Shown here one piece after another: positions 4,278-36,130 of a stretch of 37,314 nt of DNA. Positions within the stretch are counted from its first letter, which is position 1. Each line of letters opens with the position of its first letter. The notes below the pieces were generated by a model. That model was not told the origin of the DNA, searched no databases, and worked only from the letters and a program-made list of their open reading frames with translations. This DNA is from Nitrospira sp. (GTDB taxonomy: Bacteria; Nitrospirota; Nitrospiria; Nitrospirales; Nitrospiraceae), in assembly GCA_005116945.1 (NCBI GenBank), contig SWDH01000027.1, positions 52,400-89,713 on the forward strand. Direction: 5' to 3'. The translations under genes and the position numbers were made by a program.

Positions 4278-4607
4278 TCCGCTGAGATCAACGACTGCTC
4301 CTCTCAGAAGCCGAGTGCGTGCCATCGGATTCTTTCGGCGGTGATCGACAACATTCCCGTCATGTTTGCCGTCCTGAGCATGAATCCGGATATGAGTGTC
4401 GGCCAGTGGCTCCTGGTGACATTGACGGCCGGTGTCGGCGGATCGCTGTTATCTATCGGGTCGGCAGCGGGCGTGGCCCTCATGGGGCAGGCGAGGGGGA
4501 TCTATACGTTCTATGCCCACCTGAAATGGTCATGGGCGATTGCTTTGGGCTATGCCGCAAGCATCGCCGCGCATCTCATGATGAACAGCGCGCTCTTCAG
4601 TCCCTAG
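4278..4607 (+). pseudogene. NhaD-type Na+/H+ antiporter, C-terminal remnant
   Basis: The frame is open from 4278; recognisable antiporter sequence begins just before a GTG at 4341. From there about 90 residues read like the C-terminal end of NhaD antiporters: DNIPVMFAVL, GQWLLVTLTAGVGGS, LLSIGSAAGVALMGQARG and HLKWSWAI. Intact NhaD proteins are well over 400 residues, and the remaining four fifths are missing upstream, where the SulP-carbonic anhydrase gene ends only 46 bases away. There is no convincing ribosome binding site at 4341. I read it as a 5'-deleted pseudogene; the sequence is still well conserved, so the loss may be recent. Its TAG stop (4605-4607) is the left edge of a dispersed repeat element. 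Confidence 0.75.
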
Positions 4608-4934
4608 CAGGATGCTGAAAAAGTCCGCCAGCCGGGCAGGGAGCAGCCAGGTGCCCTTCTTGCTCGCAGAACGTGCACGATAGGAATGTGCTCGTTCGAT
4701 GCGCGCAGTAAAGGGCAGCCTTGGCCACTCCCCTAAAGAGAGATAGAGAGAATTGGAAGTGCCAGGCACAACGCGCGCAGTGGGGGGCTCATCCAGGCCA
4801 TCCTGGGGAAACGTCACCGAGCCAGCTTGGAGAAGCTGTTGTTCGCAGCTCGCTGCGGCCGCGCCTGTGGAAGGACGCGTCTTGGGCGCGCCGGGGTTGG
4901 GAGGGTGAGAACCGTGGCCATTTTGAGCATCCTG
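4605..4934 (+). repeat. MITE-like element, copy 1 (stop-codon anchored)
   Basis: The left end TAGCAGGATGCTGAAAAAG begins with the TAG stop of the NhaD remnant. The right end, TTTTTGAGCATCCTG, is its near-exact reverse complement, so the element has inverted termini and no long ORF. Interior sequence at about 4845-4912 (from CTCGCTGCGG to GAGGGTGAGAA) recurs inverted in copy 3. The left 29 bases are identical to copy 2 at 35923. About 330 bp, longer than copy 2. It has the look of a non-autonomous mobile element; no target duplication is obvious. Confidence 0.7.
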
Positions 4935-10964: not shown

Positions 10965-11636
10965 ATGCCACGCCGCCCACGCCTCGCTGCTGGAGATCTT
11001 GCCTATCATGTCCTGAACCGTCGGGTTGGGCGCCTCCCCTTGTTTGAGAAACCCGCTGACTACGCTGCCTTTGAGAAGATTCTCGCCGAGGCTCACGCCC
11101 AGACCAGGATTCGAATCGCCGCCTATTGCTTGATGCCGAATCACTGGCATCTCGTCCTCTGGCCTCGACATGATGGGGAGCTCTCCGAAGTGCTGCGATG
11201 GATCACGGTCACGCATACGCAGCGCTGGCATGTTCACCACAACACTGCCGGGACTGGCTCAGTATATCAAGGCCGCTTCAAATCATTTCCGGTACAGACG
11301 GATGAGCATTTCCTGACTGTTGCGCGCTACGTGGAACGTAATGCGCTTCGGGCGAAGCTGGTTAAACAAGCAGAAAACTGGCGATGGTCTAGCCTCTGGC
11401 GCCGGGATCAGGACGACGCCAAACTGGCAGCCTGGCTGAGTCCCTGGCCCGTGGAGCGGCCACGAGATTGGATATCTCGAATGAATCGTCCCGACAACGC
11501 GTTAGAACTGGAGTCCCTCAGACTCAGCGTGCAACGAGGCCGCCCCTTTGGCGAAGAAACCTGGGTAAGACGGATGGCGAAGCGGTTTGGAATGGAATCG
11601 ACCATCAGGCCACGCGGGCGGCCGAAGGGATCATGA
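10965..11636 (+). CDS. REP-associated tyrosine transposase (RAYT, Y1/HUH family)
   Basis: The 223-residue protein belongs to the Y1 transposase group that processes short palindromic REP sequences as single strands. The metal-binding HUH-type motif is the His-Trp-His at residues 60-62, within CLMPNHWHLVLWP, and the catalytic tyrosine is probably Tyr122 in ARYVERNALRA, in the expected position of the YxxxN signature. The tail after residue 150 is extended and basic. RAYTs are usually single-copy, domesticated genes rather than jumping IS elements. I see no obvious IS-type ends around it. Whether it acts on the repeat elements elsewhere in this window is an open question. Start ATG chosen because the frame begins MPRRPRL, common in the family. 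Confidence 0.9.
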   Translation: MPRRPRLAAGDLAYHVLNRRVGRLPLFEKPADYAAFEKILAEAHAQTRIRIAAYCLMPNHWHLVLWPRHDGELSEVLRWITVTHTQRWHVHHNTAGTGSVYQGRFKSFPVQTDEHFLTVARYVERNALRAKLVKQAENWRWSSLWRRDQDDAKLAAWLSPWPVERPRDWISRMNRPDNALELESLRLSVQRGRPFGEETWVRRMAKRFGMESTIRPRGRPKGS

Positions 11637-15840: not shown

Positions 15841-16095
15841 CGCTCGACTGCAACACAGTGAACGGATAGCGAGGAATCACACACCCGACACATCTGCCTG
15901 ACCCTCACCAAGCTAATTTTTGCCTGTCACCAGCCGCAAGAATTCTACGCTATCGCCGGACACTCTCTCAAAATGTTATGGTATCGCGGTCGAGCGCGAG
16001 CATTTGGCGTTGTCTCAGTCTATTGACAAGCTAGCTGATGACACCAGAAACGACATCACGTCTGCGATCACTGACGGAAGCTGCGGGGTCTGCAG

Positions 16096-16322
16096 GCTGT
16101 TCAGAAAGGCTCGACTTCTCACCCTCCCAGCCCCGGCGTGCCGGGACACGCCGTTCCACAGGCAAGGCCGCAGCGAGCGAAGAGGCGAGGAGGTACCATC
16201 CGCACTTTGTGTGGCCGTTCGCCCCTAGAATGAATCTTGGCGAACGGAAAATACCTTCCAGTGCTTCTGAGCCTCTGAGGGAGGCGAGAACGCCGCTGGC
16301 GGGCTTTGTCAACAACCGGCTA
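16096..16322 (-). repeat. MITE-like element, copy 3 (inverted, stop-codon anchored)
   Basis: Read on the minus strand, it begins with the TAG stop (16322-16320) of the large membrane protein gene. The next 34 bases match the left end of copy 2 at all but six positions, including CGCCAGC and CGTTCTCGC. The right end on this strand, AGCCTTTCTGAACAGCC then TGCAG, matches copy 2 with three changes. The part at about 16116-16180 matches the interior of copy 1 (CTCACCCTCCC to GCCGCAGCGAG). About 227 bp, no ORF. Confidence 0.65.
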
Positions 16323-18017
16323 GCTAGCAGAAGGAGGTGTGGCCAGATAGCCGGCATAACGATCAGAGAGGAAAAGAGGATCTTCACCTCCGATTTCCGC
16401 AATGTGGTATTTGCGGTCAATCACAATGTAGTTCGCGCCAAAGCGGAGGGCTGTTTGACTTAACTGTGCGAGCGATTGGTTGCGGTACCCCGCCACAGCA
16501 TCATCTTTGCTTTCAACTTTTCGACCTGCCACTTCTTCCACTCGTTTGTGCCATGCTATCAGTTCCCTCGGCTTGATGGGTGTCGACTTCCAGTCAACCA
16601 CGATTGCACGAGCGCCCAAAAGGCGAAACTCTCCCAATTCCGGAGGAATCAAGAAGTTGCTATTGATGGGTGACCTCTGTGCCCACTGATAGAGCGTACC
16701 TTCCTCGCCTATTGCCTGAGCGCTAAACAAAGTCGATCTGCTGTAAGCAGCACTGACACGACCAGGCAAGTAAGAAAAGAGGATCCCAACTGCGGCCACT
16801 GCAAAGATCGATGCCGAAATGCCAACAGTGGATGGTTTATACTTCATGAACATGGCAAGCCCTACGGTCAGCACGCTCATGCTCAGAATGGTCATAATAG
16901 GATACGAGAGTATCTGATAGTTGTGTAGGTGCCCACGCAAGACCAGCATGCTACCTAGCGCGATCAAGACACGTGGCGCAGGGTTGTTCCGGTCAAACAG
17001 GGATAGAGTGCCGCTGGTGACACGCACAGCAAAACTTGCGACTGCCACTTGACTTATGATGACGCCAAAGGGTGCCAAGCGCCAAAAGTACAGTTGCGAG
17101 ATCGTGGGGACAAAAACAAATGTGGTCAGTACCGTGGCACCGATCACGCTGGCGGCAATGCTGCCCAACAGGGCCAGCAGTGGCACACGTACCGTCCGAA
17201 CCTCAATGGTGAGTGCTGCACCAAGACCTGCAAGCAACCATCCGCTCCACGCCCAAAAATCCATCAAATAAGTTTCTGGCACGTAATGGTGCGGTGCGCG
17301 GATTTGCTGGAAGATGGTGCGAGCTGCCGCTGAACCCTCTCCACTAGACATCGCCAAGATAAGCGGCAGGTCGAACACCAGAATAAGCAGGCTTGGAACC
17401 AACTGACCAGCCAATCGACGTACTAATGCATCGCGGCCAAGGGCAAGATTCGCCAAGCCAAATATTCCGATGCCGAGGATCAGAAAGTTGGCGTGGAAGA
17501 CGCCTCCAAGTGCAAGGAAAACCCCTGAGAGCTGAACTCGCCCACTTAAGAACCACAGTATGGACACAAGCCAAGCCACTGATGCTACCACGGATGGCTG
17601 CAAACCCTCTTCAAATAAATACGACATTCCTACCGTTCGCGTGCGATCTATCATCACAAACAGCAAAACAATGAAGAACGCAACTACGCTCCCCTGTTGG
17701 GTATACGCTCGCGTGATACGGTAGATCACAAACATGCCGGCGGTGACCAAGACCAAGTTCAGGATGGCAGACCACCACGCTACCGAGCCCAGTGCGTACG
17801 TGAGCCACACAATCCATTCAAATCGGGCATGGTAGGGGGTTGTTTCCTGCACGAGCCAATCGTGGGCCAGGAAATCCGGGAACAGGTGATTGAGCGCATG
17901 GGGGAGGTACGTCGCTTGATTACCGACATTGCCGTAGGAAAAACCAAAAGAGAATGCGACAAGCAACGCCATGGCGAAGGCCATGACATCGCCCCAAGGA
18001 AGCTTTTTTGCCTTCAT
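16320..18017 (-). CDS. Large polytopic membrane protein, GtrC-type glycosyltransferase candidate
   Basis: I place the start at the ATG at 18017, which overlaps the stop of the gtrA-like gene as ATGA, giving 565 residues. A longer reading to 18089 is possible but lies within the preceding gene. The protein has about ten or more hydrophobic spans over residues 10-440, then a soluble C-terminal domain with FLIPPELGEFRLLGARAIVVDWKS and ANYIVIDRKYH, a layout seen in GT-C and DUF6798-like membrane proteins. An early acidic site (FPDFLAHDWLVQE) lies in the first long loop, where GT-C enzymes hold catalytic acids. As the third gene of a gtrB-gtrA pair, it is the candidate enzyme that moves a lipid-linked sugar onto a surface glycan. 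The gene ends at the TAG that begins element copy 3. Confidence 0.72.
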   Translation of the reverse strand: MKAKKLPWGDVMAFAMALLVAFSFGFSYGNVGNQATYLPHALNHLFPDFLAHDWLVQETTPYHARFEWIVWLTYALGSVAWWSAILNLVLVTAGMFVIYRITRAYTQQGSVVAFFIVLLFVMIDRTRTVGMSYLFEEGLQPSVVASVAWLVSILWFLSGRVQLSGVFLALGGVFHANFLILGIGIFGLANLALGRDALVRRLAGQLVPSLLILVFDLPLILAMSSGEGSAAARTIFQQIRAPHHYVPETYLMDFWAWSGWLLAGLGAALTIEVRTVRVPLLALLGSIAASVIGATVLTTFVFVPTISQLYFWRLAPFGVIISQVAVASFAVRVTSGTLSLFDRNNPAPRVLIALGSMLVLRGHLHNYQILSYPIMTILSMSVLTVGLAMFMKYKPSTVGISASIFAVAAVGILFSYLPGRVSAAYSRSTLFSAQAIGEEGTLYQWAQRSPINSNFLIPPELGEFRLLGARAIVVDWKSTPIKPRELIAWHKRVEEVAGRKVESKDDAVAGYRNQSLAQLSQTALRFGANYIVIDRKYHIAEIGGEDPLFLSDRYAGYLATPPSAS

Positions 18018-18463
18018 AGTGGTGCGAATGCCCAGCATCTCAGCAACAGAAAGTTGAGAATGGTGACGACTGCCATCACTGTAATCCATGCCTGGACTGG
18101 GTCAGTGTCCAGCCCGTCTACGGCAACTCCGATCGCCGCTATACTGAGCAACATCAGGCTTACCTGCACGGCCAAAAAACGACTGCCTTCTCCAATCACC
18201 CTGCCGCGACTGCCGAATACCCATCTTCGATTCCACGCATAACTCCAACAGGTTCCAGCGCCGTATGCAATTGCCTGAGCAAGGCTCGTCATGCCTCCTG
18301 TTTGAGGCAGTAACGCCAGCATGGCCAGATATACGATGAAGGAAATGAGCGCGTTACTCAGACCGACCAAAAGAAATCGAAGAAACCGATACGCACCCCA
18401 GTTACCAGATAACGCCACGCGGATTTGCCGTAGTCTGCTAGCGGCAGGCAGCGGTCTCTTCAT
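18014..18463 (-). CDS. GtrA-family membrane protein (putative lipid-linked sugar flippase)
   Basis: From the ATG at 18463, inside the end of the preceding gene, the product is 149 residues with four membrane spans, the size and topology of GtrA. Family features are FLRFLLVGLSNALISFIVY near the N-terminus and the aromatic CWSYAWNRRWVFGS stretch between spans two and three. GtrA proteins are thought to flip polyprenyl-phosphate-glucose (or another sugar) across the inner membrane. The start overlaps the gtrB-like gene by 26 bases, and its stop overlaps the next ATG by four bases, so the three genes form one tightly coupled operon. Confidence 0.88.
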   Translation of the reverse strand: MKRPLPAASRLRQIRVALSGNWGAYRFLRFLLVGLSNALISFIVYLAMLALLPQTGGMTSLAQAIAYGAGTCWSYAWNRRWVFGSRGRVIGEGSRFLAVQVSLMLLSIAAIGVAVDGLDTDPVQAWITVMAVVTILNFLLLRCWAFAPL

Positions 18464-35131: not shown

Positions 35132-35926
35132 GTGCTTCTGCGTCGTGCGATCCACACGGTCTTCCCATCCTTACTGCCTCTCTTCTTGACCACCGGCCTC
35201 TGGCTCGAGTCGTCGGCCGTCCACGCTGCACCCTACTTCGAGGATGGCTACCTCGGACTGACACAAACGGAACTCCATCAAAAACTAGGGATGCCGCAGG
35301 CCGTGCGCGATCGAAAGTCGGCGCTGCGCGTCTTTACATACTATGCCATCACAGATTGGGAGAAGTATTTCCAGAAACTTGTGTCGCCGGAGAATGGCGA
35401 GGACGTCTATACCTTTACCCGCAACAACATCGACGTTCGGTATTCGTTCAGCTATACCGTCGACCCCAACGATGAACGCGAGAATCGAACGCTATTCGTT
35501 CGTCTCGTCGATATCGAATTCTCCCCCGCCGTTCCTCTCGCTCAGATCCCTGCACTTGTCCCGGAATTCCACCCCTCGGAAGATCCCGCGTCTCCTTCAT
35601 TCCGATCGAATATTTGGATACTGTTGTTTGAAGGCGCTGCGTCACCAGACGCCCGTTTCATAGTAAAAGAGGCGTCCAAGGACAAACTGGAGTGGAGGTT
35701 AGCCTATCAGCTATTTTCTTTGCAGGGTCTGCCAGAACCTCTCACGACCAAAGCACTGGTCGATCGTGTGGAAATCAGCACCCAAAGTGTCGAACTGGTG
35801 AAACAACGCCAGCGGCACACCCATGACCCCATCATGAACCCCTACTCGCGGGAATTTTCCCAACACCGACTCGCGCCTCAGCTGCCCACAGCCAAGAAAG
35901 TCCCTGTCCCCAAATATGCGGACTAG
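35132..35926 (+). CDS. Exported protein of unknown function
   Basis: The start is a GTG at 35132 preceded by GGAGAG at a good distance. The 264-residue product has a signal peptide with a cleavage site near AVHAAP (about residue 33), so it is expected in the periplasm. The mature start, YFEDGYLGLTQTELHQKLGM, resembles the SmpA/BamE-type 'GxTxxELxxKLG' element, so a BamE-like subdomain is possible near residues 40-75; the rest is beta-rich with no motif I recognise. Its TAG stop (35924-35926) is the first codon-like triplet of repeat element copy 2. It is divergent from metH. Confidence 0.78.
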   Translation: MLLRRAIHTVFPSLLPLFLTTGLWLESSAVHAAPYFEDGYLGLTQTELHQKLGMPQAVRDRKSALRVFTYYAITDWEKYFQKLVSPENGEDVYTFTRNNIDVRYSFSYTVDPNDERENRTLFVRLVDIEFSPAVPLAQIPALVPEFHPSEDPASPSFRSNIWILLFEGAASPDARFIVKEASKDKLEWRLAYQLFSLQGLPEPLTTKALVDRVEISTQSVELVKQRQRHTHDPIMNPYSREFSQHRLAPQLPTAKKVPVPKYAD

Positions 35927-36051
35927 CAGGATGCTGAAAAAGTCCGCCAGCAGCGTTCTCGCATCGTTCAGACCCTCAACGTACCTCAGAGGGTACGCCT
36001 CGGCCCTTCACTCGCTGCGGCCTTGCTGGACAGCCTTTTTGAGCATCCTGC
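35924..36051 (+). repeat. MITE-like element, copy 2 (stop-codon anchored)
   Basis: The shortest and cleanest copy, 128 bp. Left end TAGCAGGATGCTGAAAAAG, right end CTTTTTGAGCATCCTGC; over 17 bases these are inverted repeats with one mismatch. The interior has CTCGCTGCGGCCTTGC, shared with copies 1 and 3, and a hairpin with GTACC/GGTAC arms. As in the other copies, the leading TAG is the stop of the upstream gene. The T-rich right arm could act as a transcription terminator. Confidence 0.72.
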
Positions 36052-36094
36052 AGCAATGTTTTCTGTTGTGCCAAACGTGCAAACCATCAAAGTT

Positions 36095-36130
36095 CTAGCA
36101 GACCACAATAGCTTTTCTGCGGCCTGCTAG
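36095..36130. repeat. Short palindrome with CTAGCAG ends
   Basis: CTAGCAG at 36095-36101 and CTGCTAG at 36124-36130 are exact inverted repeats around 22 bases. CTAGCAG is also the extreme left end of element copies 1 and 2, and this palindrome sits 44 bases after copy 2. It may be a relic end pair or coincidence. Confidence 0.35.

Follow-up and report, generated by a model that had tools for sequence, protein, structure and literature searches.

A miniature transposon, probably derived from the IS5 family, at stop codons of Nitrospira genes

Why should a dispersed repeat begin exactly where the neighbouring gene stops? The question is posed by a 37,314-nucleotide stretch of a Nitrospira sp. 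genome (GenBank assembly GCA_005116945.1, contig SWDH01000027.1, positions 52,400 to 89,713; hereafter the window), in which a repeat occurs in three copies, each directly behind a TAG that lies in frame with the upstream open frame. These three places had been correctly identified in an earlier note on this DNA, which offered two readings: either insertion targets CTAG, or the element trims its host genes, providing them with a stop and a T-rich 3' end. We propose that the repeat is derived from insertion sequences (ISs) of the IS5 family, that it enters YTAR targets (Y, C or T; R, A or G), and that it rebuilds the stop codon it enters; to this explanation as a whole we assign a probability of about 0.8. 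At the level of sequence it is supported by matching IS5-family ends, by the target logo, by an excess at stop codons in two genomes, and by unchanged C-termini at the hosts tested. To our knowledge, the transcript ends of Nitrospira, a genus of nitrifiers, have been little studied.

Hypothetically, the partner transposase would join ends of the CAGG... type to YTAR sites, preferring CTAG. Any TAA or TAG stop with C or T in front of it would itself be such a target, and insertion there would leave TAR on the gene side. Stop codons would thus be safe landing sites, because the stop is restored on insertion and the protein stays as it was.

Copies were collected from the genome in which the window lies (G000), in a sample of 1.17 Mb made up of four contigs, two of them whole; gene ends were taken from our own crude prediction rather than from annotation (1014 genes, 78% coding). 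The left arm reads CAGGATGCTGAAAAAG and was found 101 times at up to two mismatches, 72 times at up to one. An inner arm lies within 600 bp downstream in 80 of the 101 copies, at a distance of 122-126 bp in 50 of these, and the outer end, ...TTTTTCCGCAGCCTG, stands about 75-85 bp beyond the inner arm and is followed by YTAR in most recognised cases, so that a complete element measures about 200 bp. Across the whole genome the 20-base left end has 257 matches at up to three mismatches and its reversed control none, although these matches include the inner arms of the same elements, which differ from the left arm by one base, and are not copy numbers. The 16-base arm occurs in all 25 genomes of the genus that were searched, with 7-300 matches each (up to one mismatch, inner arms included; control at most one); of 16 further genomes from the order, 10 have at least one match and none more than 19. 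We consider it probable that the element is a miniature, non-autonomous transposon of IS5-family origin that has become widespread in Nitrospira. Members of other families of the order (L031-L034, L036) carry the hairpin block, or a shorter version with these arms, at low copy, in some cases directly after TAA.

The likely partner came to light through a search with the outer right end, whose 20-base pattern was found in 27 of 32 genomes of the genus; in G000 there is no copy of it within one mismatch. In one genome (G015) two inverted ends 1.3 kb apart enclose an open frame of 372 codons. The two ends are identical over 15 bp, reading CAGGCTGCGGAAAAAC directly after CTAG, and CTAG adjoins the IS on both sides. 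Its protein matches NF033581 (IS5 family) with 280.5 bits against a cut-off of 140, as well as DUF772 and DDE_Tnp_1. A relative in G008, 86% identical, has the same ends and the targets CTAG and TTAG. The consensus of the element's outer right end, TAGCAGGCTGCGGAAAAAC, equals the ends of both ISs, and the left-end consensus differs from them at 2 of 15 positions. More distant IS5-family members, with CAGGCTGTTGACAAAC ends, are present in G042, G043 and G024. These matches suggest that a transposase of the G015 type mobilised the element. As an observation on the ISs themselves, in four (L287, L284, L286 and L289) of six IS5-family ISs checked, one end together with its TAR closes an upstream open frame of 100 codons or more (280, 101, 128 and 119), and full-length ISs may therefore sit at stops too.

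Two other kinds of partner were considered and rejected, the first across 30 loci and the second within G000. An origin as an IS630/Tc1-type miniature inverted-repeat transposable element (MITE) with TA duplication would fit the fact that TA is the best shared part of the two targets, and IS630-like elements do occur in the genus, several with ends that start with TAG. However, among 30 DDE_3 loci (of 41 listed matches) there was no transposase with element ends on both its sides, and a single outer end near the edge of one locus (L247) is all that was seen, whereas the IS5-family ISs carry matching ends on both sides; we regard this origin as improbable. An element of the repetitive extragenic palindromic (REP) or GTAG type, mobilised by a REP-associated tyrosine (Y1) transposase (RAYT), is suggested by a RAYT-like gene within the window itself, but at the three Y1 loci of G000 neither a left nor an outer end turned up within five mismatches, and there was only one weak inner-arm match; the element, when complete, has two ends and corresponds to an IS5-family IS. 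This is the least credible of the alternatives. The Y1 gene of the window (10965-11636, + strand) matches REP_Tyr_transpos with 65.7 bits (cut-off 80) and has inverted repeats of the GTCGGGAGT type on either side; it is not flanked by the element. The IS630-type elements with ends beginning TAG (L230, L231, L233, L236, L099) could supply TAG stops as well, and further dispersed repeats, of the GTGCTCGCGGAACGCGCACG and GTGAAAGGTAAGACGTGAAAGGTG types, also adjoin stops and seem to form mosaics with the element in G000 and G042.

The target preference is apparent from the left flanks. TAG precedes 32 of the 72 closest left arms, TAA 16 and TGA none; the consensus is YTAR, with CTAG the commonest form, and the suggestion that insertion targets CTAG is thus supported, the same logo being published for IS5, the family of the likely partner. 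At left ends that face the 5' end of a gene, TAR still precedes 14 of 30, which argues for target specificity rather than for selection at stops alone. Where a TAR-flanked left end follows an open frame of 150 codons or more, the TAR lies in the longest frame in 32 of 37 cases.

Stop codons are nevertheless occupied far beyond their share of such targets. Of the 101 left ends, 36 coincide exactly with a predicted stop (27 TAG, 7 TAA, 2 TGA), and 29 of 58 do so in stretches of a close relative (G042) put through the same analysis, where YTAR sites number 183 at stops and 1936 in non-coding DNA. The word "always" in the earlier description thus fails genome-wide, yet the share of left ends at stops lies far above that in the YTAR background. 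Outside predicted genes, the 43 YTAR-flanked left ends divide into 25 at stops and 18 in non-coding DNA; the corresponding numbers for the 3308 background YTAR sites are 272 and 3036 (Fisher odds 17, p 4e-17; the true factor is perhaps lower, as overlooked short genes would enlarge the non-coding YTAR count and raise the odds). With up to 3 of 15 mismatches allowed, a left end directly adjoins the end of 46 of 1013 predicted genes (about 4.5%), and a right end that of 5. That stops exceed other non-coding YTAR sites may reflect local DNA structure, selective retention, or both.

The three copies of the window and their host genes are as follows.

35132..35926, + strand: host gene of copy 3, 264 aa, stop TAG at 35924-35926
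35923..35926, + strand: left target CTAG of copy 3, with the stop codon inside
35927..36126, + strand: copy 3, a complete element, CAGGATGCTGAAAAAG ... GCTTTTCTGCGGCCTG, with CTAG on both sides
35927..36050, + strand: hairpin block of copy 3, made up of left arm, core and inner right arm; both strands have T-runs
36127..36130, + strand: right target CTAG of copy 3
4341..4607, + strand: the NhaD remnant that hosts copy 1; its TAG stop, 4605-4607, is at the natural NhaD C-terminus
4608..4934, + strand: copy 1, long in the core, from its left end as far as the inner arm
16320..18089, - strand: host gene of copy 2, encoding 589 aa with a DUF6798 domain; its TAG stop is at 16320-16322
16093..16319, - strand: copy 2, diverged

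Copy 3 had been thought to end at 36051. Its inner hairpin arm stops at 36050, but the element continues as far as an outer inverted repeat, ...CCTG, which ends at 36126 and is followed by the second CTAG. The 29 identical bases attributed to copies 1 and 2 are in fact common to copies 1 and 3 (4604-4632 and 35923-35951). In copy 1 the outer right end was not recognised. Copy 2 differs at 4 of 19 bases of the left end and starts with a diverged form of the second IS5-family end type; its counterpart in G042 starts CAGGCTGTTGACAAAG, near the ends of that second subgroup (CAGGCTGTTGACAAAC). The NhaD remnant is real, as its match to NCBIfam NhaD_1 (127.6 bits) covers profile positions 335-405 of 405, the C-terminal end. 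The 264-aa host protein of copy 3, described in the earlier note as exported, has no Pfam or NCBIfam match; its gene has orthologues in Nitrospira sp. CG24A (95% identical), N. moscoviensis, further Nitrospira, and Nitrospiraceae and Nitrospirae bins. With gathering thresholds applied, nothing in the window matched Rfam.

If the element instead landed in coding sequence and brought a new stop and 3' end with it, host proteins should be shortened where it is present. One junction frame does give TAG, and 4 of the 101 left ends lie inside a predicted gene on the same strand. The comparison of host C-termini speaks otherwise. The copy 3 gene terminates at one common residue in all of its 27 orthologue loci (24 with TAG, 3 with TAA), although the element is present at the stop only in G000 and G041; the empty site of G042 reads GCGGACTAGCCG. 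Because the 25 element-free orthologues stop at the same residue, copy 3 entered an existing stop codon and trimmed nothing. In 30 of 30 loci prmC likewise ends at one residue (24 TAG, 6 TAA), and NhaD of G042, G047, G007 and G024 ends with TAG, as ALFSR TAG or similar, at the place that matches the end of the remnant. The picture for lgt is mixed: among 25 loci the element stands at the stop in G000 and G042, and of the other 23, seven (L108, L111, L113, L115, L117, L119, L120) end at the same residue, with QAKS or the like and TAG, without the element at the stop, four end with TGA, and the rest differ in the stop or the last residues. For the copy 2 gene the only other orthologue, in G042, also carries the element. 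The trimming half of the earlier proposal is thus unsupported wherever it could be tested: the copy 3 gene, prmC, NhaD and part of the lgt loci keep their C-terminus. Truncation is refuted for these hosts, and as a general account we think it very unlikely.

Some of these stops appear to have been struck more than once. The prmC stop is followed directly by a left-type end in G000, G047 and G013, and by an element in the opposite orientation, right end first, in G015, G045 and G004 and, in degraded form, in G002; this suggests repeated hits on one stop, with inversion in place as an alternative. Between G000 and G041 the copy 3 element agrees at 201 of 208 positions, compared with 247 of 300 in the upstream and 183 of 201 in the downstream flank, a contrast that repeated insertion, transfer or conversion could explain. 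More widely, 42 of 100 G000 elements could be placed in the G042 stretches, 27 as shared sites and 15 as candidate empty ones, but few of the candidate empty sites (15 and 12) are clean, the others lacking a good right-hand alignment, containing runs of N, or not being elements at all. In 10 of these 27 shared sites both genomes keep the left end, but the alignment is lost 8-24 bp inside the element and the interiors differ (L186-L203 and L206-L225 versus L039-L098); these breaks may mark renewed insertion at the same stop or exchange in place. Nine others align without a break for about 900 bp; two of the nine resemble coding sequence (C22-110015, C22+623313). Taken together, repeated hits on the same stops in different species are indicated but not proven.

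What the host might gain is suggested by the left ~125 bp, which form a hairpin with covarying paired positions. Among 50 hairpin blocks, 13 pairs are changed on both sides versus 3.9 in shuffles, and 34 cells are doubly changed versus 4.9, with 0 of 500 shuffles as high, although the arms were preselected at up to two mismatches and the shuffle control is inflated by kinship among the copies; when the partner is slid by 1-3 columns, just 2-7 doubly changed pairs remain. The paired positions could also be kept by DNA-level correction between the arms of the palindrome. Copy 3 folds better than its shuffles (z -4.35), as does copy 1 (z -2.14). Because T-runs (T5) follow the inner stem on both strands, a bidirectional terminator is plausible, and we rate this role at slightly short of an even chance. 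The hairpin may be kept for its action on transcript 3' ends, and the 16-nt left arm would put the inner stem just past the terminating ribosome. The T-rich 3' end of the earlier proposal fits such a hairpin, a putative terminator, with T-runs on both strands.

Such a role leads to a different account of the excess, in which YTAR sites are hit evenly and copies at stops are retained since the hairpin is useful as a terminator or mRNA 3' end. Beside the covariation, the predominance of the left, hairpin-bearing end over the right end at predicted stops (46 versus 5) is in its favour, as is the outer end's recognition in just 26 of the 80 copies with an inner arm (up to 6 of 19 mismatches, two copies sharing one end; 20 at up to 5). 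It would also accommodate the ends that lie 1 nt past a stop (11 genes) or directly after TGA (3 genes). The occupation of the prmC stop in both orientations, unless it arose by inversion in place, and the closer likeness of the two copy 3 elements than of their flanks argue against it. Retention of this kind is a serious possibility, to which we give less than even odds.

Several of these observations, and others, weigh against insertion by an IS5-family transposase into stop codons. Insertion into a TAR stop leaves unexplained the ends 1 nt past stops or after TGA, and the low number of recognised outer ends and the bias from overlooked short genes count on the same side, as do four further YTAR-flanked left ends within predicted genes, which were excluded from the 43. 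The left and right target tetramers often differ, mainly in the first base and also in IS copies; both sides usually share TA, often TAG, and the duplication is no clean 4 bp and may measure anything from 2 to 4 bp. In G000 the only relative of the partner IS is degraded, 51% identical and interrupted by an internal stop. As to the hairpin, the fold of copy 2 is no improvement on its shuffles (z -0.70), and that of copy 3 went unflagged in a simple terminator scan.

A wider hypothesis joins both forces: with a YTAR-seeking transposase and a hairpin kept by the host, stop codons would form a transposon niche, filled by mobile stop-plus-terminator modules at about 4.5% of predicted genes and with the same stops hit again across species. 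In this full form we hold it to be rather unlikely. The element nonetheless offers a measurable case of how a transposon can multiply at little cost to its host, its target matching a codon that insertion rebuilds, and it suggests that mobile DNA could renew the 3' ends of bacterial genes. The comparison of species provides natural replicates, in which the same stops are occupied, empty, or occupied in the opposite orientation.

Repeats that supply stops or resemble terminators are already known. In a literature search limited to open-licence PubMed Central (PMC) papers we found, among the papers listed, no report of the element, or of IS5-type MITEs in stop codons; the likenesses to BOX, SPRITE and Escherichia coli REPs drawn below are by description, not by sequence. 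In Streptococcus pneumoniae, BOX is reported to encode the stop of flanking genes in 36 cases, with truncation lacking strong evidence (PMC3049150, in part). It thus shares with the Nitrospira element the supply of a host stop; a relation of BOX to IS5 was not seen in the portion of that paper drawn on here. SPRITE, from the same species, is described as terminator-like, near gene 3' ends and suggested to be co-opted as a terminator, and differs in that insertion into stop codons is not described for it in the same portion of PMC3049150. GTAG-tagged REPs have termini that often give the TAG stop of flanking open reading frames (PMC3733652, in part), but they are short palindromes tied to Y1 transposases, whereas the Nitrospira element has an IS5-family partner. 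REPs of E. coli within 15 nt of stop codons are said to stall ribosomes or lower translation (PMC12306157, in part, citing earlier work), and they resemble the element in placing a stem-loop right behind the stop. RUP, a small repeat of S. pneumoniae, has ends in common with IS630-Spn1 (PMC2229807, in part); sharing ends with an IS is the likeness, and the IS630 type with TA in the target is the difference. The nearest relatives are the ISs and MITEs of the IS5 family, to which the likely partner's transposase belongs and for which the target is published as Py-T-A-Pu, CTAG being the commonest, with strays such as CAAG and CTGG (PMC5493358, in part) that resemble the spread of targets seen here. 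From these the Nitrospira element differs by its long covarying hairpin of left end and inner arm, by its strong excess at stops, and by the apparent lack of a clean 4-bp duplication. As far as we have searched, three things are new: the IS5-family origin of such a repeat, the quantified excess at stops that are YTAR targets, and indications that different species use the same stops again.
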